This document shows, piece after piece, positions 9,159 to 31,604 of a stretch of 48,466 nt of DNA (the stretch's first letter is position 1; the number at the start of each line of letters is the position of its first letter). The stretch spans positions 328 to 48,793 of the forward strand of contig JAAEZN010000016.1 of NCBI GenBank assembly GCA_018222835.1. Reading direction: 5' to 3'. This DNA comes from Algicola sp. (GTDB lineage: Bacteria; Bacteroidota; Bacteroidia; Flavobacteriales; Flavobacteriaceae). The notes below the pieces were generated by a model, which made no database searches, was not told the origin of the DNA, and saw only the letters and a program-made list of their open reading frames with translations. The translations under genes and the position numbers were made by a program.

Positions 9159-10976
9159 CTAAGGGGATTCTATTTCAAGAATATTCAGGATTTTTCTAAA
9201 GACCTCACTGTTTTCGTATGTTCCTTGGAATTCGTTGGAATAAGGACCATAAGCAAATATAGGTACCATCGCCGCTGTATGATCGTAAGTGGTAAAATCA
9301 CCCTCGATTTGTTTTTTCTTAAGGTTTCCCTGTGGGATGCTGACTCCTCCTGTTTCATGATCCGCAGTAATAATCACAAGGGTATTCCCCGATTTATCGG
9401 CAAATTTTATGGCCTCGGTAATCGCCCTGTCAAAATCAATACCCTCACTGACCAGACCGGACATATTATTTTGATGGGCATATTTATCAATTTTGGCTCC
9501 CTCCACAATTAAGAAAAATGGCTTTTTTTTGGAGTCTAGAAAACGAATACTGTTTTTGGTGGCTGTGGCCAAGATGTTTCCTCTACCTTCCAATACACCT
9601 TTTACATCGCCATCGGCTAAAAAATGACCTATTTTATCATCCTTGGATATGCCTATGCTTTCTAATTGGTCCAGAAGCTTATATTCATTTAAGATTTGCT
9701 TGTGCTTAAAATCTCTCTCTCCGCCACCAACGAACAGTGATAATTTGCTGTTTTTTAGGTCGGCGGCAATTGCATTCGTCATGGATCTGTCTCCTTGGTG
9801 TGCGTAGAAGGATGCCGGAGTGGCGCCCGTTAGCCTGTCTGTTGTAATACAGCCACTTAAGAAGCCATGGTTGGCAAGAACTTCGGGGATATTTTTTATA
9901 GGCCTTTTCAAAGTGTCCAGACCAATGGCTCTATTATATGTTTTTGTTCCGGTGGCAAGAGCGGTTCCGGCCGCCGCCGAATCCGTTGTGAAATCATCGG
10001 TCGAAGATGTTTTCAGAAAGCCTATGCTTTTCAATTGGGTCAATGTTAATTCGCCCCCATTGGCTAGAGTGGCTGCGGAAATTTGACTCAATCCATTGCC
10101 GTCACCGATCAGTAGGATAACATTTTTTACTTTTTTCTTTTTCTGATCGGTATCATAGGAGGGTCGATATACCTCGGAATAAATCGAATTTTGAAATGTT
10201 CTATTGGTTAGGGAGTTCACAAATTCAGCACAGGAAGCAGGTTTATCCGTGTTGATATAGTTTACGCCTAACTCTGCCAGTGCTCTCCAGGCTGTTTTGG
10301 TATCGGGAGTTGCCCAAAACCTAAAAGGTTTTCCATAGCTGTGGGCCTTGTCAATAATTGCTTTGACTTTTGCAAGGTCTTCTGCGGTCAATCTTCCCAG
10401 ACCGTTCCATTGGGAAGTTTTCCTAAAGTTTAGGCTGATCAAAGCTACTTTCTCCCAAGAGGACGTATTTCTGATGTCTTCCAAATCCTGGTAGTCGAAC
10501 ATTATGTACGAGGGATATTTCGAGTAGGTGCTGACCGGAGGCCGATTTCCCGAAATAGTCAGTGTGATGTTCTGGTTTTTACGAATGTCCGGATACTTTT
10601 CCAATAAAGTTATCAAGGCATTTAGGGTAGAAACCGCTTCGGATTTAATATCTATCAATAACTGGAAGGGTTGATGGACCCCTATATTTAGGTTGATGGC
10701 ATTTTGAAGCGGTTGAAAATATAGACTCTCAATGGTCCTTCCCTCTTTTATCTCAACTTCTTCGTGGGTAGCATACAATATGCCATTTCTTAAGTAAATA
10801 TCTACCTCAATAGATTGGGCTCCACCGGCGAACGCATTCCAAAAGGGAACATTCTGTTCGTAATCATTGTGCGAATGTATGTTTTGGGCCGAAACATGTC
10901 CGAATACCATTAACCCCGCACAAAAGACTATCAATGGTAATTTGACAGTTTTGAAAATGTTGACTAGATGATCCAT
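9159..10976 (-). CDS. Secreted GDPD/PI-PLC-like domain fused to alkaline phosphatase
   Basis: 605 aa with a signal peptide (hydrophobic LPLIVFCAGLMVFG, cleavage after VSA at about residue 30). Residues 33-250 form a GDPD/PLC-superfamily domain: HSHNDYEQN at 34-42, SIEVDI with Glu57 and Asp59, and His71 in THEE, the expected catalytic and metal residues. Residues 285-600 form an alkaline phosphatase: GDG at 291-293, nucleophile Ser333 in TDSAAAGTA, TGATPASFYAH, EGAKIDKYAH (Glu492, Asp497, His501), ADHETGG (539-545) and His566. It would hydrolyse inositol phosphodiesters (cyclic or glyceryl) and then the monoester, freeing phosphate and inositol in the periplasm. It is transcribed divergently from susC behind a LacI-type operator. 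Substrate is inferred from context. Confidence 0.9.
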   Translation of the reverse strand: MDHLVNIFKTVKLPLIVFCAGLMVFGHVSAQNIHSHNDYEQNVPFWNAFAGGAQSIEVDIYLRNGILYATHEEVEIKEGRTIESLYFQPLQNAINLNIGVHQPFQLLIDIKSEAVSTLNALITLLEKYPDIRKNQNITLTISGNRPPVSTYSKYPSYIMFDYQDLEDIRNTSSWEKVALISLNFRKTSQWNGLGRLTAEDLAKVKAIIDKAHSYGKPFRFWATPDTKTAWRALAELGVNYINTDKPASCAEFVNSLTNRTFQNSIYSEVYRPSYDTDQKKKKVKNVILLIGDGNGLSQISAATLANGGELTLTQLKSIGFLKTSSTDDFTTDSAAAGTALATGTKTYNRAIGLDTLKRPIKNIPEVLANHGFLSGCITTDRLTGATPASFYAHQGDRSMTNAIAADLKNSKLSLFVGGGERDFKHKQILNEYKLLDQLESIGISKDDKIGHFLADGDVKGVLEGRGNILATATKNSIRFLDSKKKPFFLIVEGAKIDKYAHQNNMSGLVSEGIDFDRAITEAIKFADKSGNTLVIITADHETGGVSIPQGNLKKKQIEGDFTTYDHTAAMVPIFAYGPYSNEFQGTYENSEVFRKILNILEIESP

Positions 10977-11070
10977 GCTAGATTGATAATTTAAGAAGGT
11001 GTTTCCAAAATTTAGAGGAAATTACCTTTTCAAAACAACAACAAATTTTCAGTACGGTAAAAAAAAAATG

Positions 11071-11084
11071 TGCAAACCTTTGCA
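11071..11084. promoter_or_regulatory. LacI-type operator, phosphatase side
   Basis: TGCAAACCTTTGCA: two 6-bp arms TGCAAA/TTTGCA around CC, the shape of LacI/GalR-family operators. It ends 94 bp before the phosphatase ATG (10976). The same 14 bp recur at 11232 and 21610. Confidence 0.8.
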
Positions 11085-11231
11085 TCAAATTATACTCTTA
11101 TCGTTTTAATTATCATTGGTTTGGAAAAGAATCCGTGGTGTTGGAGCAACGAAGGTAAATAGGTCGTTTTACCAGCTCTCAAATTCAATATAAACTTGAA
11201 GTTAAATACTTGCAAATTAAAGGTTAACCAA

Positions 11232-11245
11232 TGCAAACCTTTGCA
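11232..11245. promoter_or_regulatory. LacI-type operator, susC side
   Basis: Second identical TGCAAACCTTTGCA, extended to a 16-bp symmetry (ATGC...GCAT). It ends 83 bp before the susC ATG at 11329. Confidence 0.85.
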
Positions 11246-11328
11246 TAAAGTTTCGGACTCACCCTGTTACCAAAACGGTTTTTTTATTGTTATTTGGTTG
11301 CCGAATTAACAAATATAATCAGCCAAAC

Positions 11329-14300
11329 ATGAAGAAACTTAAATTTTTAGTTTTCATTTTTCTTATTGGTCTTCCAGCACTTTCATGGGCACAACAAACC
11401 ATAAATGGTACTGTTGTAGATAGTGAAGGAGTTCCTTTGCCAGGAGCCAATGTGTTAGAAAAAGGAACCACTAATGGAACCGTAACAGATTTTGATGGAA
11501 AGTATTCAATTTCAATCTCATCCAGTGCCGCTACTTTAGTGGCTTCTTATATTGGATTTGCAACGGTGGAGAAAAAAATTGGACCCTCTACGCAAACGAT
11601 TGATTTCTCATTGGTTGAGGCCAGTAACGTTCTTGATGACGTTGTCGTTATTGGATATGGAACCAGTTCCAAGGAAAAAATTACCGGTGCCGTAGCCAGT
11701 GTAAATGCAGAGGAGATATTACAATACTCCAATGCTAATGTAGATCAAGCTATTGTAGGGAAATTACCGGGTGTGGATATCCTGACAAATGCAAGAAACC
11801 CGGGAGATGGCAATACCATTACCATTAGGGGAGCCGGTTCCATTACAAGGGGAGCCAACCCACTTGTGGTGGTCGATGGGTTTCCTTTGGCAGAAGGGAG
11901 CTCTTTAAATGTATTGAACCCAAACGACATTGAAAGTATCGATGTAATTAAGGATGCCGCTTCCTCGGCAATCTATGGGTCCAGGGCGGCCAATGGACTT
12001 ATTATGGTCACTACAAAAAAAGGGAAAAGTAAAAAGCCAACAATACAAGTTCGTTCAGTTTTGGGAATACAGGAGCGCACTGGTACTTATGATCTTTTAA
12101 ATGCATATGATGCCGCTGTCTTTTTTAGGGATGGTCGCAACAATGCCTATTTAAAAAATCATCCTAACGTAAGTATTGACGATACTGAGGAAGAGCGTAT
12201 AGCAAACGGAGCAAACGTAAGGGAACTACTTTTTGATTATACACTGCCTTATTTGAACAATGAGCAGGGTCTTACCGATTTTGATTGGGAGGATGCTGTG
12301 TACAGGGCCGGATTGGTACAAAATTACCATGTAAGTGTTTCCGGGGCCAAAGATGAAACAGATTATTCAGTGTCATTGGGCTACACCGACGAGGAAGGTA
12401 TTGTAATTACTGCCGATCAAAAACGCTATACAGCTAATATAAAGGTAAACACAAGATTGGGCGAACATTTTAAGTATGGAGTTAACGTAAATGGGTACTA
12501 TGCCGAGAGAGGCATTACCAATGGAAGTAACAATTATCGTTTCCCCATCGACCCTGCCGGTAGGGCCATGGTATATATGTTTCCTTTCTTTTCGGCCTAT
12601 GACGATTCGCATCCTACAGGATACAATATAGAAGCGCAGATTCTTGCCAATAGGCCTTACAATGGAAATATGCAGGAAAATCCAGTTGCGATGGCCGAAT
12701 TGTCTAAATATCAACGAAGAGAATTTAGGACTTTTGGTAATACTTACCTATCCTATGAGCCTATAGATAATTTAGAGATCAAAACATCTTTGGGCTACCT
12801 TTTTGGTACAAGGTTCACAGATCAGTATGCACCTATGTTAACAGGAGCTTATAGGGAATTGATTAGTGAAAGAAATTCTCAACAAGGTTCTGAAGGTAGG
12901 GGCGACCAAGGTGACATTCTTATAGAAAACACGGTTAATTATACCTTTGATATAGGCAAACACTCTTTCAATACGTTATTAGGGCAGAGTTTTCAGAAAA
13001 GTTCAGCGACTAGTTTATCGGTCAATGGATACGATTTTCCTAACGATATTATTCAAAATATAGATGGTTCCACAGTTCAGACCGCGGGAGCTTCAAGAAG
13101 TAGGTGGACACAACTGTCCTACTTTAGCCGTCTTATGTATAATTATGATGGAACTTATTTCCTATCGGGATCCATACGTTCTGATGGTTCTTCGAGGTTT
13201 GGTAAGGACAACAGGTATGGTACCTTCGGCTCATTTTCAGCAGGATGGGTTTTGAGCAACGAATCCTTCTTTCCAAAAAATGATATTGTAACCTATGCCA
13301 AATTGCGCTACAGTTGGGGACAGACAGGAAACAACCAGATAGGGAACTATGCCCAATATGCATCCATTAGTACTGGAAGGGATTACCCTTATGATGGAAC
13401 CCTCCATCCCGGTGCGGCGCCTTCCAGCGCTCCATCCTATAAACTTTCATGGGAAACCAATACCTCGAACAACTTTGGTGCGGATTTCAGCTTTTTCAAT
13501 AAAGTACGATTTGGGGTGGATTACTACGTGGCAAACATTACCGACCTTCTTTTGGATAGGCCGGTTCCCAAGCACACCGGTTTCAATAATTCATTACAGA
13601 ATATAGGTGAAATGCAAAATAAGGGATGGGAGTTCAGTCTTAATGCCTCGGATTTTAATATAGGAGGAGTAATGTTGGGTCTCAATGCAAATTTGGCAAC
13701 CAATAACAATGAGATTATATCCCTTGGAGGTGCAGATGAATTATATGAAGGAGGAAGCCAAAGGTTTATTACCCGAGTAGGGGAGTCATTGGCAAATTTA
13801 TATGGCTATAAAATTGTTGGTATCCTTAAGTCTGAGGAAGAAGTACAAGAATATCTTAGTAGAAAAAGCACTACTCTTTCTGCAGAAGTAGGAGATTATA
13901 TATTTCAAGATACAGACGGCAATGATGTTATAGATGCCGATGATAGAGTGCTTTTGGGAGATTACAATGCAGAAGTAACATATGGATTCGGTATCAATCT
14001 GGCCTATAAAGGTTTTGATTTCAATATGAACTTCAATGGAACAATGGGTAGGGTCGCATACGATGATATGACATCTAACTATTTAGAGTATGGTGAAGCC
14101 TTTACCAATACCAATTATCATTATTTCAACAATTATTGGGATCCGATCAGTAATCCAGAAGGCTATTTTGCGCCACCAGATGCATATGGAAATACCGCCA
14201 CTAGGGCTGCAAGTAGGAGGCCTACCAATTACAATGTATTGGATGCGGACTATCTAAGATTACGTAGTGTTCAGTTAGGGTATAACTTTTCTCCCTCTGT

Positions 14301-14490
14301 GTTAAAGCACCTGCATCTTAAGAGCCTAAGGGTTTATGTGTCGGCCAACAATTTGCACACATGGACCAATTATAGAGGTATGAATCCAGATGGAGGCGAT
14401 ACCGGAAATCCACTGGATAGGGGATATGTCAAAGGAACCACTTCTGTTCCTAGACTTATTTCTACAGGTATTAATCTATCATTTCAATAA
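11329..14490 (+). CDS. SusC/RagA-family TonB-dependent outer-membrane transporter
   Basis: 1053 aa from the ATG at 11329, which starts a clear signal peptide (MKKLKFLVFIFLIGLPALS, cleavage near WAQQ). After it come a CarboxypepD_reg-like beta domain (INGTVVDSEGVPLPGANV), a TonB-dependent plug (EKITGAVASV, GKLPGVDIL, then VVVDGFPL, IESIDVIKDAASSAIYGSRA and ANGLIMVTTKKG) and a long beta-barrel ending in the aromatic residue FQ. It imports a bulky ligand across the outer membrane with a SusD lid. It opens the plus-strand unit of the inositol-lipid island, 10 bp before susD. The operator upstream implies substrate induction. I infer the cargo to be an inositol phosphate or phospholipid head group; the family alone does not say this. 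Confidence 0.95.
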   Translation: MKKLKFLVFIFLIGLPALSWAQQTINGTVVDSEGVPLPGANVLEKGTTNGTVTDFDGKYSISISSSAATLVASYIGFATVEKKIGPSTQTIDFSLVEASNVLDDVVVIGYGTSSKEKITGAVASVNAEEILQYSNANVDQAIVGKLPGVDILTNARNPGDGNTITIRGAGSITRGANPLVVVDGFPLAEGSSLNVLNPNDIESIDVIKDAASSAIYGSRAANGLIMVTTKKGKSKKPTIQVRSVLGIQERTGTYDLLNAYDAAVFFRDGRNNAYLKNHPNVSIDDTEEERIANGANVRELLFDYTLPYLNNEQGLTDFDWEDAVYRAGLVQNYHVSVSGAKDETDYSVSLGYTDEEGIVITADQKRYTANIKVNTRLGEHFKYGVNVNGYYAERGITNGSNNYRFPIDPAGRAMVYMFPFFSAYDDSHPTGYNIEAQILANRPYNGNMQENPVAMAELSKYQRREFRTFGNTYLSYEPIDNLEIKTSLGYLFGTRFTDQYAPMLTGAYRELISERNSQQGSEGRGDQGDILIENTVNYTFDIGKHSFNTLLGQSFQKSSATSLSVNGYDFPNDIIQNIDGSTVQTAGASRSRWTQLSYFSRLMYNYDGTYFLSGSIRSDGSSRFGKDNRYGTFGSFSAGWVLSNESFFPKNDIVTYAKLRYSWGQTGNNQIGNYAQYASISTGRDYPYDGTLHPGAAPSSAPSYKLSWETNTSNNFGADFSFFNKVRFGVDYYVANITDLLLDRPVPKHTGFNNSLQNIGEMQNKGWEFSLNASDFNIGGVMLGLNANLATNNNEIISLGGADELYEGGSQRFITRVGESLANLYGYKIVGILKSEEEVQEYLSRKSTTLSAEVGDYIFQDTDGNDVIDADDRVLLGDYNAEVTYGFGINLAYKGFDFNMNFNGTMGRVAYDDMTSNYLEYGEAFTNTNYHYFNNYWDPISNPEGYFAPPDAYGNTATRAASRRPTNYNVLDADYLRLRSVQLGYNFSPSVLKHLHLKSLRVYVSANNLHTWTNYRGMNPDGGDTGNPLDRGYVKGTTSVPRLISTGINLSFQ

Positions 14491-14500
14491 AAACAGAACA

Positions 14501-15877
14501 ATGGTTATAAAACGAACATTATTTGTCATAGCAGCAATGTTTTTATGCATTGCTTGTGAGCAAGAACTTGACCAGTTTCCGGAAACAGGGATCTTGGCGA
14601 ACAATTACTATACTAACCAAGAAAATGTGGAGTCAACCGTAACGGCTACTTATAATGAGTTACAGGCTCTTTACGACTATTACATGATTCTTTGGGGAGA
14701 AATACCAACGGACAATGCATATATTCAGGCTCCAAACTCCAATGGAGGTGCCAGGGCGCTTGAGGACTTTTCATGGGCCAGTACCGAAGGGTTTGTTGGA
14801 AGCATCTGGGAAAATTCCTATGAAGGCATCTTTTATGCGAACACTGTTTTGGATATCATTGATGAGGTGTTGTATGATAGTGAGTCATTGAAGAATGTGA
14901 GAATTGGGGAAATGAAGTTCATTAGAGGCTTTTTGTACCATAACCTTACCACCATATATGGTGAGGTTCCTTTGGTGCTCGACATTGATGACCCTACAAA
15001 TGCTTTTGATGATACTCGGACTCCCTTAGCGGAAATCAATGCCCAAATAGAGCTTGATTTATTGGACGCCATCTCGTTATTGCCAAAAAACAACAGTGCA
15101 GGAAGAGCAAATGAATATGCAGCCAGAGCAATACTGGCCAAGCATTACATGAAGCAGCAGCAGTTCGATAAGGCAGCCGCTCAATTAGAGACCATTGTAA
15201 CTTCTCAAAAGTATGCTCTTGCTCCAATTGATGCGCTTTTCGGTGTTGACAATGAGGGCAACGATGAGGATGTCTTCAGTATCCAATATGCATCCAACCT
15301 AGACGGGATGAGTGAAGGAAGTAGGTTTTACTATCTTTTTACCCAACCCGATGACCAAGGCGGTCAAGGAGCCATGGCCATGGAAAGTTCCTTATATGCA
15401 CTTTATGGAGCAAATGACCTTCGCAGGAACCTGATCAACGAATCCAGCAATGTTTACTATATAAACAAATGGACACCATCCCCCAATAGTAATAGAGGTG
15501 ACGGAGGTGATAACCACTACGTGGTCAGGTATGCAGATGTATTGTTGCTATATGCCGAATGTTTAAATGAAAATAATAATACAGCATTGGCAGGAACGTA
15601 TCTTGATCTTGTTAGGGAACGGGCAAACATAGGAGCCAATACGGCAACAGATCAAGCCAGTATGCGCGAGGCCATTGCTCTTGAAAGAAGGTTGGAGCTT
15701 GCAGGTGAAGGTCATCGATGGTTCGATCTTCTGAGAACAGGAACAGCGGTCCAAACAATGAATTCATTTTTTCAACAAGAGGGTAAAAGCATAACAGTAG
15801 AGCCATATCGTCTCCTAGCTCCACTTCCACAATCGGAAGTTGATATAACCGATATGGAGCAGAACCCTGGATATTAA
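14501..15877 (+). CDS. SusD/RagB-family surface lipoprotein
   Basis: 458 aa from the ATG at 14501, 10 bp after susC. The signal peptide ends in a lipobox (FLCIAC, lipid-bearing Cys near residue 19). The body has the SusD pattern: ETGILANNYYTNQENVESTV near the N-terminus, the helical TPR-like core (MKFIRGFLYHNLTTIYGEVP) and the C-terminal block YVVRYADVLLLYAECLNE, then RRLELAGEGHRWFDLLRTG, which is diagnostic. It caps the SusC barrel and binds the incoming ligand at the cell surface. At 458 aa it is slightly shorter than most SusD proteins, fitting a small ligand. Confidence 0.95.
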   Translation: MVIKRTLFVIAAMFLCIACEQELDQFPETGILANNYYTNQENVESTVTATYNELQALYDYYMILWGEIPTDNAYIQAPNSNGGARALEDFSWASTEGFVGSIWENSYEGIFYANTVLDIIDEVLYDSESLKNVRIGEMKFIRGFLYHNLTTIYGEVPLVLDIDDPTNAFDDTRTPLAEINAQIELDLLDAISLLPKNNSAGRANEYAARAILAKHYMKQQQFDKAAAQLETIVTSQKYALAPIDALFGVDNEGNDEDVFSIQYASNLDGMSEGSRFYYLFTQPDDQGGQGAMAMESSLYALYGANDLRRNLINESSNVYYINKWTPSPNSNRGDGGDNHYVVRYADVLLLYAECLNENNNTALAGTYLDLVRERANIGANTATDQASMREAIALERRLELAGEGHRWFDLLRTGTAVQTMNSFFQQEGKSITVEPYRLLAPLPQSEVDITDMEQNPGY

Positions 15878-15893
15878 TAAAAAAGCAAACTAC

Positions 15894-17417
15894 ATGAAAC
15901 GTATATATAAATTATTTATGGTTGCTGCCTGTATTGTGGCGACAATGTATTCTTGTGATGTGGACAGCACCGATTATGCATTGGACACAAGAGATGTTTA
16001 CATCGAGTCCATAGTGATTGAAGCAAGCAAGAACAGTTGTATAGAAGAAGACATACAGGTTTCTGTAAGCAATCCTACCAGAAGTATAACGGCTTCGCTA
16101 CCCAGCGAATGTGATGCCAGTGAAATTGTATTGACCATTAATGTTAACGATGGAATCACTACATCGCCCGGGTCCGGCTCAAGTTTTAGTACAGGAGCCT
16201 CTTCTTTATTGGTGTCCGGATTTGATCTCGAAGAAGAATATACAATAAACCTTAAAGTATTACAGCCATTCGAGTCGGATGTAGAATTTGTATCGGTATG
16301 GCGAGTAAATGCAAACGAGAGCATAACACTTCCTCTGGTAGATAACGGTAATTATAACTTTAAGGTGTTTTGGGGAGATGGACAGGAAAGTATTGTCGCA
16401 ACTTACGACCTAGAGTCCGCAACCCATACCTACACACAAGCAGGCGATTATACGGTTACTGTATGGGGTGTGATCGAAGGGTTCAATTTTTACAAAACAG
16501 ATCAAAGTGCCGGCAACATTCTGGATATAACCAATTGGGGGCAGGTCAAGTTAGGCAACGATGAGGCTTATTTTAGGAATTGTTCCAACTTGCAGATTTC
16601 TGCAGCCGATAGTCCGGACCTTACAGGTACCACCACTTTAAAAGCTATGTTTCGAGGAGCAACATCATTCAATAGTGATATAAACCATTGGGATGTGAGC
16701 GGAGTTGAGAATATGCAAGACCTATTTTTCCAAGCTACCAATTATAACCAGCCTTTGGATCAATGGAATGTTGGTAATGTCACAACTTTTGAAACCATGT
16801 TCAGGCAATCAGCTTTTGATCAAGATATTTCAGGTTGGGATGTAAGCAAGGCAAGTACATTGAAAAATATGTTCAGGGATAGCCCATTCGATAAACCTAT
16901 AGGTAATTGGGATATCTCTAATGTAACAAGTCTGCAATCCACTTTTAGGGGAAACAATGCCTTTAGTCAAGATCTTTCCGGTTGGGGCGATAAACTGGGT
17001 AGTGTTGTTACCATGAGAGAGTTGTTCAGGGACTCGGATTATAATGGGGATTTGAGTGCTTGGGACGTGAGCAAGGTCGTCAGTATGTGGGACATGTTCA
17101 AGGACAGTGGATTTAACAATCCCTCAATTACTGGATGGAATGTTAGCGGTCTGGATAATATGGAGACTATGTTCGGAGGGGCGGGTTGTGCCTTTAACCA
17201 GGATATTTCAGGTTGGAACGTAAGCAATGTTGTTAATATGCAGAATTTGTTCAAAGAGAATCAAGTGTTCAATCAAGATCTGTCTGGATGGGATGTTGGC
17301 AATGTAATGTGCAATTTGGATTTTGATACCGATGCCCCTCAATGGGAGGCCGTTCACAAACCAAACTTTGTTGCCGATAAAACGGACAACAATGAATATT
17401 GTAGTAGAGAATATTAA
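15894..17417 (+). CDS. Surface lipoprotein with PKD-like domain and DUF285 repeats (putative ligand-binding protein)
   Basis: 507 aa. Lipoprotein signal (VATMYSC, Cys near residue 21). Residues about 30-135 form beta-rich domains. Residues 140-200 look PKD-like (VFWGDGQES and THTYTQAGDYTVTVWG). From about residue 258 to 471 there are nine repeats of about 24-27 residues of the DUF285/BspA-like surface repeat (FDQDISGWDVSKASTLKNMF is typical). Such repeats occur on cell-surface proteins. Its position straight after susD, 16 bp away, is where surface ligand-binding proteins (SusE/F or SGBP) are encoded in polysaccharide loci, so I infer it binds the lipid or membrane substrate. No enzymatic motif is seen. 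Confidence 0.85.
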   Translation: MKRIYKLFMVAACIVATMYSCDVDSTDYALDTRDVYIESIVIEASKNSCIEEDIQVSVSNPTRSITASLPSECDASEIVLTINVNDGITTSPGSGSSFSTGASSLLVSGFDLEEEYTINLKVLQPFESDVEFVSVWRVNANESITLPLVDNGNYNFKVFWGDGQESIVATYDLESATHTYTQAGDYTVTVWGVIEGFNFYKTDQSAGNILDITNWGQVKLGNDEAYFRNCSNLQISAADSPDLTGTTTLKAMFRGATSFNSDINHWDVSGVENMQDLFFQATNYNQPLDQWNVGNVTTFETMFRQSAFDQDISGWDVSKASTLKNMFRDSPFDKPIGNWDISNVTSLQSTFRGNNAFSQDLSGWGDKLGSVVTMRELFRDSDYNGDLSAWDVSKVVSMWDMFKDSGFNNPSITGWNVSGLDNMETMFGGAGCAFNQDISGWNVSNVVNMQNLFKENQVFNQDLSGWDVGNVMCNLDFDTDAPQWEAVHKPNFVADKTDNNEYCSREY

Positions 17418-17442
17418 TTATGTTTTTTCTCATTTCATTAAA

Positions 17443-17472: not shown

Positions 17473-17491
17473 AATGCTATAACTCAATAAT

Positions 17492-19402: not shown

Positions 19403-19450
19403 TGATCGGCCTAATTGTTTACGGAACAGTCAATTTAAAAGAACATAAAC

Positions 19451-21592: not shown

Positions 21593-21609
21593 AATTTTTT
21601 GCTCTTTCA

Positions 21610-21623
21610 TGCAAACCTTTGCA
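21610..21623. promoter_or_regulatory. LacI-type operator before the iol operon
   Basis: Third identical TGCAAACCTTTGCA (16-bp symmetry with flanking A and T), 92 bp before the aldolase ATG and 17 bp after the regulator's stop codon. Position relative to the start codon matches the other two sites. Confidence 0.85.
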
Positions 21624-21715
21624 TGGAGTTTTCGTTGAATTGCTTTCGGACACACGCTTTTTTTTGTTCTTTTACCCTCGGTTTTAGGCCATTGCCTGAA
21701 CATTAATATTAGAAC

Positions 21716-23556: not shown

Positions 23557-23562
23557 AAAGAA

Positions 23563-24576
23563 ATGAGCAATAAAAAATTTGATATTATAACATTTGGTAG
23601 ATCTTCCATAGATCTATATTCACAGGACATTGGCTCCCCTTTTAACTATATTAAAGGTTTTGATGCCTTTGTTGGGGGATCTCCATTGAATATCGCCGTG
23701 GCCTGTGCCCGGCTTGGGCTTAAACCTAGTCTGCTTACTGCGGTGGGTAATGATAAAGTGGGAGAGTTCATCATCAACTTTTTAGAAGAAGAAAAAGTAA
23801 ATACAGACTTTATTCCGGTTAAAAATAAAGCAAGAAGTAGTGCAGTCGTTCTTGGAATAGAACCACCCGATAAGTTTCCCTTGGTATATTATCGGGACAA
23901 CGCAGCGGATAGTCAAATAGATATTGACGATGTGTTGGCCGCTAACATCCAAGACCATAAAATACTATTGATAAACGGTACCGCAATGAATATTGAACCC
24001 AGTAGGAGTTCTACATTCTTCGCAGCGGAAATTGCCGAAAAAAATGATGTTGATATTGTATTAGATCTGGATTTTAGAGCAGATCAATGGCACGACTATC
24101 GAGCCTTTGGTATTACGGTAAGGGCAATACTGCCCAAAGTCAAGATAGCGATAGGTACCGAAGAGGAGATTTTGGCAGCTACCCTTAGCGAAGCTTCTCA
24201 AGTAGTCATCAAGGATCAACAGATTTCCGCACCCGAGATTAAGGGAGATATTGATGAATCGATAAAATGGTTGCTTTCTTCGGGAGTAGAGATTTTGTTG
24301 GTAAAAAGGGGGGCAGACGGTGTCAGTATTTATTCCAAGGATGGTTCCAGGCAAGATGTGCCAGGGTTCAAAGTATCTGTTTTGAATGTTTTGGGAGCAG
24401 GAGATGCTTTTGCGGGTGGATTTCTTTATGGTCTTTTACAGGGGTGGGACTTATATAAATCCTGTCGAATGGGCAATGCCAGTGGTGCACAGGTTGTGAC
24501 CAAGAAAGGTTGCGCAAACTTTATGCCCACATTGGAAGAATCATTGAAGTTTATTGAGGACGCAGGAGGATTTTAG
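23563..24576 (+). CDS. iolC: 5-dehydro-2-deoxygluconokinase
   Basis: 337 aa PfkB/ribokinase-family kinase. Motif 1 GGSPLNIAVACARLG with GNDKVGEFI lies near the N-terminus, and motif 2 NVLGAGDAFAGGFLYG holds the catalytic Asp at about residue 280. The start SNKKFDIITFGRSSIDLY is typical of IolC. It phosphorylates 5-dehydro-2-deoxy-D-gluconate with ATP, providing the substrate of the aldolase. The gene sits between iolB (6 bp) and iolD (100 bp). Some IolC proteins are fused to an aldolase-like DUF2090 domain; this one is not, agreeing with the separate aldolase gene. Confidence 0.95.
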   Translation: MSNKKFDIITFGRSSIDLYSQDIGSPFNYIKGFDAFVGGSPLNIAVACARLGLKPSLLTAVGNDKVGEFIINFLEEEKVNTDFIPVKNKARSSAVVLGIEPPDKFPLVYYRDNAADSQIDIDDVLAANIQDHKILLINGTAMNIEPSRSSTFFAAEIAEKNDVDIVLDLDFRADQWHDYRAFGITVRAILPKVKIAIGTEEEILAATLSEASQVVIKDQQISAPEIKGDIDESIKWLLSSGVEILLVKRGADGVSIYSKDGSRQDVPGFKVSVLNVLGAGDAFAGGFLYGLLQGWDLYKSCRMGNASGAQVVTKKGCANFMPTLEESLKFIEDAGGF

Positions 24577-24676
24577 TAAAAAAGTAATACAAAATTGAAG
24601 TTGGAAGGGGATTGTCAACGATTGGGTGACAGGAAAAGCTGTCCAGGAAATCCAATTTTAACCTAAGAATAGAATT

Positions 24677-26536
24677 ATGAAGACAATACGATTGACGGTA
24701 GCCCAGGCAACCATCACATATTTGAAAAACCAATTTGTTGAACGTGATGGTATAGAGCACAAATTTTTTGCCGGTTGTTTTGGGATTTTTGGCCATGGAA
24801 ATGTGGCTGGTTTAGGGCAAGCCCTACATCAAGATCCGGATTTTCCTTTTTATGTGGCAAGAAATGAGCAAGCTATGGTACATGCCGCGGTTGCATATGC
24901 CAAAGTAAAAAATAGACTGGAGTCTTTTGTTTGTACTACATCGATTGGTCCAGGAGCAACAAACATGGTTACAGGAGCTGCTTTGGCTACCATTAACCGC
25001 ATACCTGTTTTGTTGATTCCTGGAGATATTTTCGCCACTAGACAGGTTGCCCCAGTTTTACAGCAACTGGAATCAAGCAGCACACAAGATGTTTCGGTCA
25101 ATGATTGCTTTAAGCCGGTATCTAAATATTGGGATAGAATCAATAGACCGGAGCAATTGATTACGGCATTGCCAGAAGTCATGAGAGTGTTGACCTCACC
25201 AGCGGATACAGGAGCAGTCACGCTTAGTATTCCTCAAGATGTGCAGGCCGAAGCCTTTGACTTTCCTGCAGAAATGTTCCTCAAAAAAGTTTGGACCATT
25301 GGTAGAACATTTCCCGATCGTTTACTTATGGAAAGAGCTGTTTCTTTGATCAAGAGCGGTAAAAAGCCATTTATTGTTGCAGGTGGAGGTGCTATCTATA
25401 GCGGTGCTACGGAAATTTTACAAAAATTTACAGAACGTACCGGGATTCCTGTTGCAGAAACCTATGCCGGAAAAGGTTCATTGCCCTATGATGCTCCCCA
25501 GAATTTGGGAGCCATAGGTGTTACGGGAACCCCGGGGGCGATTGAAGTAGCCAAGGAGGCAGATGTCGTCATTGGGATAGGTACAAGGTACAGTGACTTC
25601 ACTACGATTTCAAAGTCTGGGTTTCAAAACCCCAATGTACGTTTCATCAATATTAATGTGACCGAGTTTGATTGCTTTAAACACGGTGCATTGCCCTTGG
25701 TCGGGGATGCCAGGTTAATTCTGGAAGAATTGGACAAAGAATTGTCAAAGTTTAAAGTTGAAAGCTCTTATGGAGACCGAATCAAAAACCTGAATCAAAG
25801 TTGGGATGCATTTGTAGAGGAAGTTTATACCGAAAAAAATGAGGTTCCTGCGTTTCAAGGTGAGGTAATAGGCGCTGTAAATAAATTTTCGGATGCCAAA
25901 GACATTGTTCTTTGTGCTGCGGGAAGCTTGCCGGGGGACCTTCATAAATTGTGGAGAACAAGACACCCAAAGGGGTTTCATTTGGAATATGGATATTCCT
26001 GCATGGGATATGAAATTGCAGGAGGACTTGGAGCTAAGATGGCCAGTCCCGATAGCGAAGTCTATGTGATGGTAGGGGACGGTAGTTACCTGATGATGTC
26101 CCAAGAGATTGTCACCTCCATTCAAGAAAAACAGAAACTCACCATAATCCTATTGAACAACGATGGATATTCGAGCATTGGCTCTTTGTCCGACTCCCTG
26201 GGCAGTGAAGGCTTTGGTACTTTTTATCGGTACCGTAATGAAGAGACCCAACAGTTGGATGGAGGACTTTTACCGGTAGATTATGCAGCCAATGCTGCAA
26301 GTATGGGGGCGCATGTTATAAAAGCAACCAATGTTCAAGAATTAAAACAAGCCTTAACCGATGCCAAGTCCATAGATCGTACAACTTTGATCTATATAGA
26401 AGTTGATAGAAAGAAAGGGGTTCCTGGATTTGCATGGTGGGATGTGGCAGTAGCCGAAACCTCAGAACAGGAAAAAGTGAAATCATCCTATGAAACATAT
26501 TTAAAAAATAAAAAAACACAGAGATACTACCTATAA
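24677..26536 (+). CDS. iolD: 3D-(3,5/4)-trihydroxycyclohexane-1,2-dione hydrolase
   Basis: 619 aa thiamine-diphosphate enzyme. N-terminal pyrimidine-binding domain with the catalytic Glu in RNEQAMVHAAVAYA, a central domain (IVAGGGAIYSGATEIL and GIGTRYSDF) and a C-terminal PP-binding domain with MVGDGSYLMMSQEIVTS and LLNNDGYSSIGSL. It opens the inositol-derived ring to give 5-deoxy-glucuronate. The opening TIRLTVAQATITYLKNQFVE is characteristic of IolD. It follows iolC after 100 bp in which I see no terminator, and precedes the symporter by 24 bp. Confidence 0.95.
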   Translation: MKTIRLTVAQATITYLKNQFVERDGIEHKFFAGCFGIFGHGNVAGLGQALHQDPDFPFYVARNEQAMVHAAVAYAKVKNRLESFVCTTSIGPGATNMVTGAALATINRIPVLLIPGDIFATRQVAPVLQQLESSSTQDVSVNDCFKPVSKYWDRINRPEQLITALPEVMRVLTSPADTGAVTLSIPQDVQAEAFDFPAEMFLKKVWTIGRTFPDRLLMERAVSLIKSGKKPFIVAGGGAIYSGATEILQKFTERTGIPVAETYAGKGSLPYDAPQNLGAIGVTGTPGAIEVAKEADVVIGIGTRYSDFTTISKSGFQNPNVRFININVTEFDCFKHGALPLVGDARLILEELDKELSKFKVESSYGDRIKNLNQSWDAFVEEVYTEKNEVPAFQGEVIGAVNKFSDAKDIVLCAAGSLPGDLHKLWRTRHPKGFHLEYGYSCMGYEIAGGLGAKMASPDSEVYVMVGDGSYLMMSQEIVTSIQEKQKLTIILLNNDGYSSIGSLSDSLGSEGFGTFYRYRNEETQQLDGGLLPVDYAANAASMGAHVIKATNVQELKQALTDAKSIDRTTLIYIEVDRKKGVPGFAWWDVAVAETSEQEKVKSSYETYLKNKKTQRYYL

Positions 26537-26560
26537 AACTGACCTAACCAATTAAACTTA

Positions 26561-28159
26561 ATGGATTCTGATTTACTTATTATACTGGTATCGTTTGTCC
26601 TTTTCACGGGAGGCGTTGCCCTTTTTACCTGGTACAGCCTAAGGAAGACTAACCTTAAATCATCTGACGGCTATTTTTTGGGGGGTAGGAGCTTAACAGG
26701 TACCGTCATAGCGGGATCAATGCTTTTGACCAATATTTCGTCCGAGCATTTGATAGGAATGAACGGAAATTCTTATGTGAACGGCTTTATTGTTATTGCA
26801 TGGGAGGTCACCTCTTCAATAGCCTTGGTTGTGGCAGCAGTTTTCTTTGTGCCCAAGTACCTTAAAATGGGGCTTACCACCATTCCCCAATTTTTGGAAA
26901 ACCGATTCGATAGTTTCACCCGATCATTGGTAGCGGTAATCCTGATCTTTTCATTTGTTGTAACATTATTGCCAATTGTTCTGTATGCAGGAGCTATTGG
27001 GATAGAAAGTCTTTTTGGCGTTTCAGAAATATTGGGGGTCGATAAAACACAAGGATTATGGTTCACTGTTGTGATCATTGGCATTATAGGGTCTATCTAT
27101 GCCATATTTGGAGGGTTAAAAGCTGTTGCCTTTTCCGATACCATAAATGGTTTTGGACTTTTGATAGGGGGACTACTGATACCCATATTGGCGTTGATGG
27201 CCATTGGAGAGGGTAATGTTGCCGATGGCCTTTACAAGGTATATGAGTTTGCACCTGAAAAATTCAACGTAATTGGTGCCTCCGATTCCGTTTTACCTTT
27301 TGAGGTGCTGTTTACGGGGTTGATCATAAACCAACTTTACTTCTGGGGGATGAACCAAGCCATTATCCAAAGAGCCTTGGGTGCTAAAAACTTAAAGGAA
27401 GCACAAAAAGGATTATTGCTGACCGGGCTCTTTAAGATATTGATTCCATTGATAATCGTGTTGCCCGGTGTAATCTGTTTCTATTATTTCCAAGATACGT
27501 ATTATGGACAACAAGACAGTGTTTACCCACAATTGGTCAAAAAAGTATTGCCTGTTTGGTTAATAGGATTCTTTGCAGCAGTGATTATGGGGGCTGTTCT
27601 GAGCACCTTTAATTCCGTGTTGAATTCTGTTGCAACGCTTTTTAGTATCGATATTGTCAAGAAGCATATCAAAAAGGATATAAGTGATCGTAAACTTGTT
27701 TTAGTGGGCAAAACAACATCGGCAGTTTTGGCTTTGGCCGCCATTTTTGCCGCACCTATGATGGCCAATGCTCCGGACGGTCTTTATCAATTATTGCAGG
27801 AATTGAACGGTATTTATTTTATTCCGATCGCATCCATATTATTGGCCGGGTTCTTTATAAAACGCATTTCGGCAGAAGGGGCAAAAGCAGCCTTGATCTT
27901 TGGTCTCTTGTTCTACATTTTTATGTCTTGGATATACACGGGGCATGGGATTCACTTTGTGCACCTGTGGGGAATTGAATTTGTTTTGAACGTGATCCTA
28001 ATGTTCGTGGTTTCCCATTTTTATCCGAGAAAAAATGTGTTTGAAGTGGCCGATGTTGGGGCAGTGAGCCTTGTCTCATGGAAATATACCAAGGTGGTAT
28101 CGATTGGGCTGTGCTTGGTTACAGTGCTGATTTATATCCTGTTGGGAAGTAACTCTTAA
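26561..28159 (+). CDS. Sodium:solute symporter (SSS family), probable inositol transporter
   Basis: 532 aa, about 13-14 membrane spans. It has SSS-family signatures: SDGYFLGGRSLTG, GSMLLTNISSEHLIGMNG, YAIFGGLKAVAFSDTINGF and the NQAIIQRALGAKNLKEAQKG region, plus AAVIMGAVLSTFNSVLNSVA, which contributes to the sodium site. Members include the eukaryotic SMIT inositol and SGLT sugar carriers. Placement between iolD and iolA argues that it carries inositol over the inner membrane using the sodium gradient, which suits a marine host. Sugar specificity cannot be proved from sequence. Confidence 0.9.
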   Translation: MDSDLLIILVSFVLFTGGVALFTWYSLRKTNLKSSDGYFLGGRSLTGTVIAGSMLLTNISSEHLIGMNGNSYVNGFIVIAWEVTSSIALVVAAVFFVPKYLKMGLTTIPQFLENRFDSFTRSLVAVILIFSFVVTLLPIVLYAGAIGIESLFGVSEILGVDKTQGLWFTVVIIGIIGSIYAIFGGLKAVAFSDTINGFGLLIGGLLIPILALMAIGEGNVADGLYKVYEFAPEKFNVIGASDSVLPFEVLFTGLIINQLYFWGMNQAIIQRALGAKNLKEAQKGLLLTGLFKILIPLIIVLPGVICFYYFQDTYYGQQDSVYPQLVKKVLPVWLIGFFAAVIMGAVLSTFNSVLNSVATLFSIDIVKKHIKKDISDRKLVLVGKTTSAVLALAAIFAAPMMANAPDGLYQLLQELNGIYFIPIASILLAGFFIKRISAEGAKAALIFGLLFYIFMSWIYTGHGIHFVHLWGIEFVLNVILMFVVSHFYPRKNVFEVADVGAVSLVSWKYTKVVSIGLCLVTVLIYILLGSNS

Positions 28160-28187
28160 TTTAATACTAAGATTAATAGCAATTCAA

Positions 28188-29660
28188 ATGAACATTTTAA
28201 AAAATTACATTGATGGGCAATGGTCCATAAGTGAATCAAAGGAGAGCATACCCGTATATAATCCAGCCAATCAAGAAGTATTGGCCCATGTTCCATCGGG
28301 AAACGATACGGCAAAGGATGTTGCCAAAGCTGTGGAAGTCGCCCAAAAGGCTTATAACGAGTGGAGTAAAGTCCCGGTGATGAAAAGGGTTCAGGTGCTT
28401 TATCATTTAAAGTCCCTCTTGGAAGACAACAGGGAAGAGTTGGCGGAAATCATAACCAACGAATGTGGTAAAACAAGGGCAGAATCCTTGGGAGAGATTC
28501 AAAGAGCAATAGAAAATGTAGAAGTAGCATGTGGTACCCCAATGCTTATGGCTGGCGACATTATTGAAGATATTGCAACGGGTATTGACGAGATGATGAT
28601 CAGACAACCTCTTGGCGTATCGGCATGTATTACCCCTTTCAATTTTCCGGGCATGATCGTTTTTTGGTTTTTACCATATGCCATTGCCACAGGTAATGCT
28701 TTTATTGTAAAGCCATCGGAAAAAGTTCCCATGACGATGATGAAGATTTTTGAGTTGATGGATGCCCTGGACATGCCCAAGGGATTGATCAATATGGTGC
28801 ACGGAGGTAAAGAATCAGTAGATGCCTTGTTGGAACACCCTTTGGTAAAAGGAATCAGTTTTGTGGGCAGTACACCAGTTGCACGATATATCTACTCAAA
28901 AGGAACGGCGAACGGAAAACGTGTTCAGGCACAAGGTGGTGCCAAGAACCCAGTTGTAATATTACCAGATGCCGACATAGAAATGTCTTCAAAGATCATA
29001 GCAGATTCGGTCTATGGCTGTGCAGGTCAAAGATGTCTTGCGGCATCCACCATTATAACTGTTGGGGATGATAAAGGAGATATTAAGGAATCCATTTATG
29101 AAACTGTAAAAAAGCGTACTACGGGATATGGTCTTCAGGATGTGGATATGGGACCGGTCATTACACCGGAGAGTAAGGTTAGAATTGAGGGACTTATCCA
29201 AAAAGGTCTCGATGAGGGAGCCAAATTATTATTGGACGGAAGGAATGCAAAGGTTTCGGGTTATGAAAAAGGAAACTTTTTGACTCCTACGATATTGGAA
29301 GATGTTGCCTTGGACAAGGAATTGATCAAAACAGAGATTTTTGGTCCTGTGATGAGCCTTATCTCTTTAAAAAACATAGAAGAAGCATTGCAGTTTGTAA
29401 ACAATGGGGCCTATGGAAATATGGCTTGCCTGTTCACAACTAATGGAGCAAGCGCCAGAAAGTTCAGAAATGAAGCGGATGCCGGTAATATTGGGATAAA
29501 TATTGGTGTTGCGGCTCCGATGGCACAATTCCCGTTCAGCGGCTGGAAAGATAGTTTCTTTGGAGATCTTCATGGTCAAGGAAAGCATGCCATAGAGTTT
29601 TTTACGCAGACAAAAGTGGTTATTGAACGTTGGCCCAATATCTGGTCACGCAAATTTTAA
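28188..29660 (+). CDS. iolA: Methylmalonate/malonate-semialdehyde dehydrogenase (CoA-acylating)
   Basis: 490 aa aldehyde dehydrogenase of the MmsA/IolA group. NAD-binding region with ITPFNFPGMIVFWFLPYAIA, VKPSEKVPMTMM and SFVGSTPVARYIYSKG, then catalytic Cys283 in GCAGQRCLA and the terminal block FPFSGWKDSFFGDLHGQGK. It oxidises malonate semialdehyde from the aldolase step to acetyl-CoA and CO2. The gene lies 28 bp after the symporter and ends 11 bp before iolE. The same enzyme family also serves valine breakdown (mmsA), but the operon points to inositol. Confidence 0.95.
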   Translation: MNILKNYIDGQWSISESKESIPVYNPANQEVLAHVPSGNDTAKDVAKAVEVAQKAYNEWSKVPVMKRVQVLYHLKSLLEDNREELAEIITNECGKTRAESLGEIQRAIENVEVACGTPMLMAGDIIEDIATGIDEMMIRQPLGVSACITPFNFPGMIVFWFLPYAIATGNAFIVKPSEKVPMTMMKIFELMDALDMPKGLINMVHGGKESVDALLEHPLVKGISFVGSTPVARYIYSKGTANGKRVQAQGGAKNPVVILPDADIEMSSKIIADSVYGCAGQRCLAASTIITVGDDKGDIKESIYETVKKRTTGYGLQDVDMGPVITPESKVRIEGLIQKGLDEGAKLLLDGRNAKVSGYEKGNFLTPTILEDVALDKELIKTEIFGPVMSLISLKNIEEALQFVNNGAYGNMACLFTTNGASARKFRNEADAGNIGINIGVAAPMAQFPFSGWKDSFFGDLHGQGKHAIEFFTQTKVVIERWPNIWSRKF

Positions 29661-29671
29661 TGGGGAAGCGA

Positions 29672-30577
29672 ATGATTAAAATAGCAAATGCCCCATGCTC
29701 ATGGGGCGCCTTGGAATTTGATCTTGAAGACAAATCCGAAGAAATCGGTTTCGAGCAGGTATTGAATGAAATAAAGGAGACCGGATATTTGGGAACGGAA
29801 TTGGGAGATTGGGGTTTTATGCCCACAGATCCAGCAGCATTGAGGGAAGAAGTATCCAAACGGGGCCTGGAACTGTTAGGGGCTTTTGTTCCGGTTCCCC
29901 TTGCAAATCAAAAGGAACATTCCAACGGATTGGAATCGGCGATGAGAGTTGCTAAATTGATTTCCGATGCAGGATATAACGATGCATTTATAGTATTGGC
30001 CGATGACAATGCTTCGGTACCGGAAAGAACTCAAAATGCGGGAAGGATCACAGCACAAATGGCATTGAGCCAAGAGCAATGGAAAATCTTTGCCAGAGGC
30101 GCAGAGGAAATAGCTCGGAAAGTTAAGGAAACCTATGGGATACGAACAGTTTTCCATCATCATTGTGCTGGTTATGTGGAAACGCCCAAAGAAATTGATA
30201 CCTTAATGGAATTGACGGACCCAAATGTTCTTGGGCTTTGCCTTGACATGGGACATTATGCCTTTGGTGGAGGAAATCCGGTCGAAGCTTTGGAAAAATA
30301 TAAGGAAAGAATATGGCACGTCCATTTTAAGGATTATGATCCAGTGGCGGCACAAACGTCCGAAAAGGAAGGCGGTGATTACTTTAATGCTTTGAAGAGA
30401 GGGGTCTTTTGTGAACTTGGAAAGGGAGTGGTTGATTTTAAATCAATAGTTGAAATCCTGGAACAAACCGGATATAAAGATTGGATAGTAGTGGAACAAG
30501 ATATTTTGCCGGGTATGGGATCTCCCAAAATCTGTGCAGAAGCTAATCGTCAATATATAAAAACATTAGGATTATAG
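29672..30577 (+). CDS. iolE: myo-inosose-2 dehydratase
   Basis: 301 aa from the ATG at 29672; an ATG at 29660 overlapping the iolA stop is in frame, but the family starts MIKIANAPCSWGALEF, so I take the later one. TIM-barrel (xylose-isomerase-like) fold with TVFHHHCAGYVETP, CLDMGHYAFGG and IWHVHFKDYDP giving the metal-binding residues, and WIVVEQDILPGMGSP near the end. It removes water from scyllo-inosose (2-keto-myo-inositol) to form 3D-(3,5/4)-trihydroxycyclohexane-1,2-dione, the IolD substrate. iolG follows after 4 bp. Confidence 0.95.
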   Translation: MIKIANAPCSWGALEFDLEDKSEEIGFEQVLNEIKETGYLGTELGDWGFMPTDPAALREEVSKRGLELLGAFVPVPLANQKEHSNGLESAMRVAKLISDAGYNDAFIVLADDNASVPERTQNAGRITAQMALSQEQWKIFARGAEEIARKVKETYGIRTVFHHHCAGYVETPKEIDTLMELTDPNVLGLCLDMGHYAFGGGNPVEALEKYKERIWHVHFKDYDPVAAQTSEKEGGDYFNALKRGVFCELGKGVVDFKSIVEILEQTGYKDWIVVEQDILPGMGSPKICAEANRQYIKTLGL

Positions 30578-30581
30578 TAGG

Positions 30582-31604
30582 ATGTCAAATACTAAAGATT
30601 TTAAAATAGCCATAGCAGGCTTGGGCAGAATAGGTAAAATACATTTGGGGAACCTCTGCCAAATGAAAGGTGTACAAGTAGTGGCAGCCATGGACCCTCT
30701 TGAGGAAGGTAGGCAGTATGCCAAGGAGAAAATGGTTCCGAACATAGTCTCTTCTTATTCAGAAATGCTGGAAATTGGAGAAATAGATGCTGTAATTATC
30801 TGTTCGCCCACAAATACCCACGCCGATTATGTAGAAATGGCCGCTAAAGCCGGTATCCATTCATTTTGCGAAAAACCTTTAGACTTGTCATTAGAGCGTG
30901 TGGTTGAGGTCCTTGAGGTTGTTAAGAAGTCTGGAACTAAACTAATGTTGGGCTTTAACCGAAGGTTCGACAAGGAATTTAGAAAAGTAAAGGAGCTGGT
31001 CAAAAATGGCGCCGTAGGTGAACCTCATTTGGTTAAAGTTACCAGTAGAGATCCAGGGGCCCCACCAATAAGCTACATTGAAAAATCGGGGGGACTGTTC
31101 TTGGACATGACCATCCATGATTTTGATGTGGCCCGATTTATTGTGGACAAGGAAGTAGTGGAAGTGTTTGCCAAAGGAGCCGTTTTAATTGACCAAGCCA
31201 TTGGTGAAGTAGGGGATATAGATACAGCGATAGTAACTCTTGGATATTCTGATGGAACTATGGCTGTTATTGATAATAGCAGGCAGGCCTCCTACGGATA
31301 CGACCAGAGGGTTGAGGTTTTTGGATCCCAGGGAATGGTACAATCAAACAACAATTTTATGGATTCCCATAAATTGTACAATGATAAAGGAATACATGCA
31401 GCTTTACCGTTGCATTTCTTTTTGGAAAGGTATCAAGAGGCATATAGGATTGAAATCATGGACTTTATAAAAAGCCTTGAAAATGGAAATGAAATGCCAG
31501 TTGATGGAAATGATGGGCTACAATCCTTGAAGATTGGTCTTGCTGCCATAAAATCACTTAAGGAAAACCGACCTGTGAAGATTTCCGAAATTTTTTGTGA
31601 GTAA
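30582..31604 (+). CDS. iolG: Inositol 2-dehydrogenase (Gfo/Idh/MocA family)
   Basis: 340 aa. N-terminal Rossmann fold GLGRIGKIHLGNL, cofactor-side motif CSPTNTHADYVEMAAKAG, catalytic Lys in FCEKPLDLS, and DMTIHDFDVARFIV with the catalytic Asp/His pair. It oxidises myo-inositol to scyllo-inosose with NAD+, the first step of the pathway. It is the last gene of the operon and is followed by a terminator. The family has many substrates; operon context and the close fit to IolG spacing support the call. Only one dehydrogenase is encoded here, so scyllo-inositol use is not indicated. Confidence 0.92.
   Translation: MSNTKDFKIAIAGLGRIGKIHLGNLCQMKGVQVVAAMDPLEEGRQYAKEKMVPNIVSSYSEMLEIGEIDAVIICSPTNTHADYVEMAAKAGIHSFCEKPLDLSLERVVEVLEVVKKSGTKLMLGFNRRFDKEFRKVKELVKNGAVGEPHLVKVTSRDPGAPPISYIEKSGGLFLDMTIHDFDVARFIVDKEVVEVFAKGAVLIDQAIGEVGDIDTAIVTLGYSDGTMAVIDNSRQASYGYDQRVEVFGSQGMVQSNNNFMDSHKLYNDKGIHAALPLHFFLERYQEAYRIEIMDFIKSLENGNEMPVDGNDGLQSLKIGLAAIKSLKENRPVKISEIFCE

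Follow-up and report, generated by a model that had tools for sequence, protein, structure and literature searches.

Why should an outer-membrane SusC/SusD pair stand beside a phospholipase C (PLC)-like lipoprotein and a set of inositol catabolism (iol) genes? The question is raised by positions 9159–31604 of a 48,466-nucleotide stretch of DNA from a marine flavobacterium, an Algicola sp. (hereafter the window; G000:C23:328-48793, from a 3.52 Mb draft genome). An earlier note, made from the DNA letters, had described this region as a locus devoted to inositol phospholipids, with one operator motif in common. The open reading frame (ORF) list and Pfam and NCBIfam profile scans recover every gene that it named between these positions (Table 1), and the common motif is genuine: the locus holds three copies of the palindrome TGCAAASSTTTGCA, and the rest of the genome one. 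On balance, we lean towards reading the region as a single inositol-responsive regulon that harvests inositol phospholipids, its presumed substrates. The link of the locus to inositol is strong and a lipid substrate is plausible; phosphatidylinositol (PI), glycerophosphoinositol, and glycosylated inositol phosphate are the candidates.

A common operator joins three putative transcription units

The genes, their order, and the operator with its spacing and conservation were computed directly from the DNA. In a scan of the window, matches to TGCAAACCTTTGCA start at 11071, 11232 and 21610. A scan of the genome (3.5 Mb) gave four sites, three of them in the locus, and a reversed control pattern gave none. 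Twenty genomes have the operator together with iol genes, on 25 stretches that hold 48 operator copies. In a permutation control over these 25 stretches, the window included, the operator has 46 sites, whereas 119 palindromes made by permuting the half-sites average 0.04 and never exceed 2. Together with the conserved spacing, the genome scan and the permuted palindromes rule out a chance origin of the operator.

The distance between operator and gene is conserved in relatives. An operator precedes the iolJ start at 84–97 nt in the 19 of these 20 genomes that were measured; in the twentieth, G444, iolJ is cut by the end of the stretch and the coordinates give 91 nt. The SusC start is preceded at 80–85 nt in nine genomes, five of which carry the SusC type of the window (the window itself, G409, G437, G444 and G420) and four another type (G830, G673, G826 and G668), the two types being ∼30% identical to each other. 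For G401, where SusC and operator lie on separate stretches, the coordinates give ∼83 nt, and in G398 a copy lies 248 nt from SusC. For 11 of the 20 genomes the retrieved stretch includes the GDPD-PhoA fusion, and nine of these 11 have an exact operator 72–145 nt upstream of its start; G409 has a two-mismatch copy, and G482 was left out of this measurement. Searches detected a LacI gene in all but one of the 20 genomes (e.g., in L120 of G575, which has two operators), and in the permutation-control set the other 11 stretches of the group without LacI contain no operator. Common operators at conserved spacing thus make the enzymes and the regulator look co-regulated, and SusC and SusD are neighbouring ORFs, as in Sus-type (PUL-like) loci.

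From this arrangement we infer the pairing of regulator with operator, the inducer, the substrate, the localisation of the proteins and the order of reactions. The LacI-family protein of the locus would bind the three ATGCAAASSTTTGCAT copies and so control three units: GDPD-PhoA; SusC-SusD-DUF285-PLC-esterase, possibly with LacI itself; and iolJBCD-SSF-iolAEG. The PLC, a putative surface lipoprotein, would cleave the phosphodiester of inositol phospholipids (PI or a relative), and SusCD would import the released inositol phosphate or glycerophosphoinositol across the outer membrane. A periplasmic GDPD-alkaline phosphatase fusion may then liberate inositol and phosphate, and the sodium symporter and Iol enzymes would take the inositol, via kinase and aldolase steps, to acetyl-CoA. 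At the N-terminus, SusD, the DUF285 protein, and the PLC-like protein have a lipoprotein-type cysteine followed by acidic residues, and acidic residues behind the lipoprotein cysteine signal surface export; the GDPD-PhoA fusion and the esterase have an ordinary signal peptide as judged by eye. Residues 279–600 of the fusion align with the solved alkaline phosphatase 2w5v, its nearest solved relative (E 1.4e-70), and the closest solved structures of the symporter are sodium/glucose cotransporters.

Additional operator copies lie outside the three units. The fourth copy in the genome (G000:C130:29493-29506; L027:4494) falls in the 5′ portion of a different SusC ORF, upstream of which an ORF resembles FecR by eye; it may be a second target or chance. 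In both G401 (L069:2325) and G409 (L059:4642), GDPD-PhoA is followed by one more perfect operator. The G401 copy precedes a sulfatase ORF (L069:2420-4000; PF00884 and PF16347), with no ATG within 320 nt, and desulfation may be part of the regulon in certain species.

The PLC-like protein and the inositol pathway

The PLC-like protein P0001 resembles a Ca2+-dependent PI-PLC in which a beta-propeller, at approximately residues 90–392, interrupts the presumed catalytic domain. Its profile matches that of PF16670 proteins with an E value of 1.9e-9 over 103 columns, or 2.2e-15 without the propeller columns. All 25 members of the P0001 family alignment match PF16670 at E ≤ 0.1 (best 8.5e-6), and PF16670 is precomputed on three of 35 P0001 homologues among the matches listed. 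Seven residues (H64, N65, E91, D93, H394, E438 and K440) are the same in all 25 family members. The program hhalign aligns E91/D93 and E438/K440 to positions conserved in propeller-free PF16670 proteins, and in a joint alignment of 46 sequences H64, N65 and K440 are invariant and E438 nearly so. By analogy with eukaryotic PLC, the residues to expect are a catalytic histidine pair and metal-binding Asn/Glu/Asp/Glu. Among the matches listed, fold searches returned propellers and other beta folds on the propeller part (e.g., sialidases, PfCyRPA, and beta-propeller phytase); these matches to a predicted structure indicate fold, not function. No PI-PLC fold was among the matches listed, which excludes nothing, and neither the P0001 sequence nor its profile matched a solved structure. 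A PLC with a propeller in its catalytic domain would be a candidate new enzyme architecture.

The inositol pathway is recognized by curated models. IolB, IolC, IolD, IolG and MMSDH (IolA) pass their NCBIfam cut-offs, and IolG, IolD, IolB and IolC over cut-off are what a myo-inositol catabolic cluster should show. IolJ passes only TIGR00167, a broad ketose-bisphosphate aldolase model.

Relatives carrying the same gene set

The earlier note had proposed looking for this gene set in other genomes, and all 15 genes are indeed present in the same order in G409, G437, G444 and G420. Similarly, the named contig L006, close kin of L010, covers 13 of 13 genes in the same order before the stretch ends inside IolA, and G401 has 13 of the 15 in order, with the DUF285 and esterase genes missing. 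Within a sample of 71 genomes of the genus, eight have the PLC gene, 11 have iolD over cut-off, and six have both. The two co-occur (iolD in 6/8 PLC-positive versus 5/63 PLC-negative genomes; Fisher p = 7.9e-5, uncorrected for kinship). Nine of the 11 iolD-positive genomes have the operator; it was not seen on the contigs of the other two, G452 (3.5 kb) and G453 (11.6 kb). The remaining 60 genomes have iolD matches below cut-off only, presumably acetolactate synthase kin. PLC-profile searches covered samples of the class (395), family (397) and phylum (395), with at most three candidates scored in the genomes listed, so that misses are soft. The sole convincing match in these samples beyond the window is G583; weak rows are G196 and G068, with the propeller-free, PF16670-bearing P0040 and P0041, and G210.

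A stable iol-operator frame with variable modules

The operator reaches beyond the genus. We found iolB in 21 of 397 family genomes, the window's among them, and in one of 262 in the class sample, which is the window's own; 15 family neighbourhoods were examined, five more on short stretches, plus the window. Eleven of the 20 other family genomes have the operator with iol (G747, G470, G830, G675, G482, G673, G826, G484, G668, G781 and G575). It was not found in the stretches of G528, G745, G558, G727, G562, G736, G753, G760 and G544; those of G562, G760 and G544 end near iol. The stretches of G470, G830, G482, G673 and G781 include a GDPD-PhoA protein (57–62% identical), and G484 has a GDPD-only protein.

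What accompanies this frame differs from genome to genome. A distant SusCD lies between operator and LacI in G830, G673, G826, G668 and G482, and other frames carry the GDPD-phosphatase with no SusCD. In G830 and G673 a GH92 gene separates SusD from LacI; in G675 and G575 one adjoins an operator, divergent from LacI (by Pfam for the first three, and for G575 by 75% identity to the G675 protein). In G482 a PF01663 phosphodiesterase gene stands 78 nt behind an operator. Within the genus, the iol frame of G398 is accompanied by a third SusCD and by three UnbV/FG-GAP proteins; a gene of the PIG-L (GlcNAc-PI de-N-acetylase) family also belongs to this locus and starts 80 nt after an operator. SusCD and UnbV-like proteins (26–28% identical by BLAST) also stand beside iol in the operator-less stretches of G528 (L112) and G736 (L121). 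The stretches of G449, G397 and G747 contain no module, apart from an operator-less PIG-L relative (G449) and a sigma/FecR-type SusC start (G397). Thus, across genomes, the iol-operator frame stays constant and the adjoining module changes.

Two details of these loci merit mention. In G482 (L109:4315-9893) an operator precedes ORFs of 195 and 406 residues, sigma and FecR by size and place, and then SusCD, so both control types are possibly present together. The large FG-GAP/UnbV (ASPIC) proteins that accompany SusCD beside iol in G398 are at L072:12477-19213 and L078:227-3508.

A wider reading, which we regard as possible though more doubtful than likely, is that Flavobacteriaceae share a family-wide inositol regulon in which a fixed frame serves interchangeable outer-membrane modules behind the same operator. 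It would be the first described SusCD class for inositol-containing lipids and lipid glycans: PI, glycosylphosphatidylinositol (GPI) and glycosyl-inositol-phosphoryl ceramide (GIPC). The iol enzymes and a palindrome ∼94 nt before iolJ would form this frame, usually with a LacI gene and often with a divergent GDPD-phosphatase. Among the modules, SusCD with the propeller-PLC would serve inositol lipids; two others, the distant SusCD plus GH92 mannosidase and the third SusCD plus PIG-L/UnbV, may serve glycosylated inositol phosphates. Because GH92 and PIG-L occur in sister loci, a bolder option is that inositol-phosphate glycolipids (GPI anchors, GIPC) are the common theme, which, if true, would account for the need of a SusCD. 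The exchangeable middle (PLC, GH92 or PIG-L) makes the substrate question testable through relatives.

Weighing the alternatives

Several observations weigh against the reading of the window as an inositol-phospholipid regulon. SusCD pairs usually handle ligands larger than inositol phosphate, and the true ligand may therefore be bigger. P0001 scores 16.5 bits against PF16670, below the gathering cut-off of 29.9. Its H394 was matched to the second family histidine by eye alone, a pairing that hhalign did not make, and E91, D93 and H394 fall outside the conserved columns of the joint MAFFT alignment. Two structure models, the second built with 25 added PF16670 proteins, predict a confident propeller and low-confidence catalytic parts. 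IolE reaches 209.3 of 290 bits and misses its cut-off, with an alignment covering positions 2–288 of 290. G747 (L105) has iol and one operator, with no LacI match in its 20 kb stretch. One Flagellimonas species (carriage of the locus there was not checked) is negative for inositol use, according to the available part of PMC12472895.

The PLC cassette also occurs apart from iol. Three of the nine PLC-positive genomes in the samples searched, G395 and G404 (same genus, 60–80% identity to the window) and G583 (same family, 51–72%), keep SusC-SusD-DUF285-PLC. None of these three genomes has iolB, and G395 and G404 also lack iolD over cut-off; no operator with up to two mismatches was found in the stretches examined, which in G395 and G404 end with the contig shortly after PLC. 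Sigma-70/ECF and FecR genes precede SusC in G395 and G583, and G404 has ORFs that match these by size and place alone. SusC in the iolB-less loci has an N-terminus ∼100 residues longer, with an STN domain scored in G583 and none listed for G395; the Pfam scan gave no STN match in the window SusC. A tree of 13 SusC sequences places the six LacI-type proteins in one supported group beside the three others, so that one change of regulator suffices. In G583 the PLC gene is followed by one for a GDPD_2 protein. The cassette therefore seems to pay without inositol catabolism too, perhaps through phosphate, glycerol or acyl chains. Thus the earlier note's common operator stands, joining SusCD, PLC, GDPD-PhoA and iol with conserved position and sequence, whereas its description of the locus as devoted is not supported.

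These iolB-less cassettes favour two of the alternatives. One is phosphate scavenging with inositol as a by-product that is also used. The Flavobacterium johnsoniae phosphate-utilisation loci PUSI (SusCD with a PF16670 PI-PLC) and PUSII (SusCD with PhoA carrying PF13653) are induced by phosphate depletion, according to the available part of PMC8115612, and the GDPD_2 protein in G583 would fit such a role. However, operator and spacing bind the units of the window to iol, and the three iolB-less PLC loci, so far as they were examined, have no operator; we consider this explanation quite unlikely. The other, that the SusCD-PLC-esterase block is a mere neighbour acting on an unrelated phosphodiester or acylated polymer, would also suit the weak match of P0001 to known PI-PLC. 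It is very unlikely given the common operator at fixed spacing, the gene order kept in six relatives and the conserved PI-PLC-type residues. A third possibility concerns the ligand. The locus may target glycosylated inositol phosphates, such as GPI-anchor glycans or the GIPC headgroups of algae and fungi, rather than plain PI, and an oligosaccharide ligand would need a SusCD. SusCD pairs are classically glycan importers, and GH92 (an alpha-mannosidase family) in the operator-iol frame of four genomes (G830, G673, G675 and G575), PIG-L in G398 and the PF01663 phosphodiesterase in G482 point the same way. Nonetheless, GH92 and PIG-L are broad families, SusC of the GH92 and PIG-L loci is only ∼30% identical to the window SusC, and Pfam gives no glycoside hydrolase family among the 15 proteins of 9159–31604. 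We regard this possibility as unlikely. Because no glycoside hydrolase is found in the locus, plain inositol lipids or glycerophosphoinositol are the better guess for the window.

Relation to known systems

With SusCD beside a putative phosphodiesterase and a phosphomonoesterase, the locus has the gene content of a phosphate-utilisation locus. Like PUSI, it pairs SusCD with a putative Ca2+-dependent PI-PLC family (PF16670) protein, and its GDPD-PhoA fusion has the same domain pair (PhoA and PF13653) as PUSII. In contrast to these phosphate depletion-induced loci, for which the available part of PMC8115612 names no iol genes or LacI, the window has both enzyme types in one locus with iol, a LacI-type palindrome and an apparent propeller insert in the PLC. 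The IolG, E, D, B, C, J and A enzymes are those of other bacterial iol clusters, which a survey counts in 3% of 2,227 Bacteroidetes and 2% of 810 Flavobacteriaceae species, with a BCDE gene order in Flavobacteria; the part of that survey available to us describes no SusCD or phospholipase with them (PMC9430895). The iol genes are also annotated in Parapedobacter, according to the available part of PMC7500135. The locus likewise resembles Sus-type polysaccharide utilisation loci in its SusC/SusD, lipoproteins, secreted hydrolases and dedicated regulator, but differs from them in its lack of a glycoside hydrolase, its LacI regulator and its cytoplasmic cyclitol pathway.

Sus-type polysaccharide loci are usually under hybrid two-component system (HTCS) or sigma/anti-sigma control and carry glycan enzymes. 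We found no description of the SusCD-PLC-iol combination in the full-text literature, with subscription papers mostly outside the search. The earlier note's claim of novelty needs narrowing, since SusCD with PI-PLC and SusCD with PhoA were already described in F. johnsoniae. What is new is the coupling to iol under a putative LacI-type switch, a PLC apparently split by a propeller, and the swapping of modules within the family. Sus-type loci are currently read as glycan, peptide or phosphorus systems. A regulon in which SusCD and a phospholipase C are tied to a complete inositol pathway suggests that eukaryotic membrane headgroups serve some marine Bacteroidota as a source of both carbon and phosphate, a rarely considered fate of algal lipids. 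The palindrome offers a convenient marker in the search for further modules.

Layout and surroundings of the locus

Judged from the N-termini, the likely starts are ATG 11329 for SusC and ATG 14501 for SusD (Table 1), a small correction to the earlier reading.

Table 1. Genes and operators of the locus, in window coordinates
Feature	Position	Strand	Remarks
GDPD_2 + PhoA alkaline phosphatase fusion (P0003)	9159..10976	-	signal peptide; probably periplasmic
Operator 1, one end mismatch	11070..11085	.	GDPD-PhoA start 94 nt away, downstream
Operator 2, perfect palindrome	11231..11246	.	SusC ATG 83 nt downstream
SusC/RagA TonB-dependent transporter	11329..14490	+	TIGR04056 834 bits
SusD lipoprotein	14501..15877	+	PF07980, PF14322; start inferred from N-terminus
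DUF285/PARCEL-repeat lipoprotein (P0002)	15894..17417	+	PF03382 E 9.5e-64
PI-PLC-C1-like lipoprotein, beta-propeller apparently inserted in presumed catalytic domain (P0001)	17492..19402	+	
Secreted BD-FAE/acetylesterase-like alpha/beta hydrolase (P0004)	19451..20323	+	not in G401
LacI-family regulator, presumed operator reader	20546..21592	+	PF00356, PF13377
Operator 3, perfect palindrome	21609..21624	.	iolJ 92 nt downstream
IolJ-like class II aldolase	21716..22687	+	PF01116, TIGR00167 over cut-off
IolB 5-deoxy-glucuronate isomerase	22684..23556	+	TIGR04378 299.6 bits, cut-off 205
IolC 5-dehydro-2-deoxygluconokinase	23563..24576	+	TIGR04382 375.7 bits, cut-off 300 (domain model)
IolD	24677..26536	+	TIGR04377 915 bits, cut-off 715
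Sodium:solute symporter (SSF)	26561..28159	+	PF00474; 2xq2 E 2.9e-63
IolA/MmsA CoA-acylating semialdehyde dehydrogenase	28188..29660	+	TIGR01722 543.9 bits, cut-off 448.5
IolE inosose dehydratase	29630..30577	+	TIGR04379 209.3 bits, below equivalog cut-off 290; true start probably internal
IolG inositol 2-dehydrogenase	30582..31604	+	TIGR04380 428.9 bits, cut-off 355

Immediately downstream of iolG, on the same strand (32116-34994), are genes for a TPR histidine kinase, whose best NCBIfam match is FimS (below cut-off), and a LytTR response regulator; 32116-34994 contains no operator copy. Further out, the flanks encode an NYN/OST-HTH protein (700-1449), a fatty acid desaturase (2267-3454) and a type IX secretion PorP/SprF protein (46773-47666). 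The G+C content is 0.40–0.43 throughout the locus (9159-31604) versus 0.34–0.40 in the left flank (1-10000), which may hint at acquisition of the locus.

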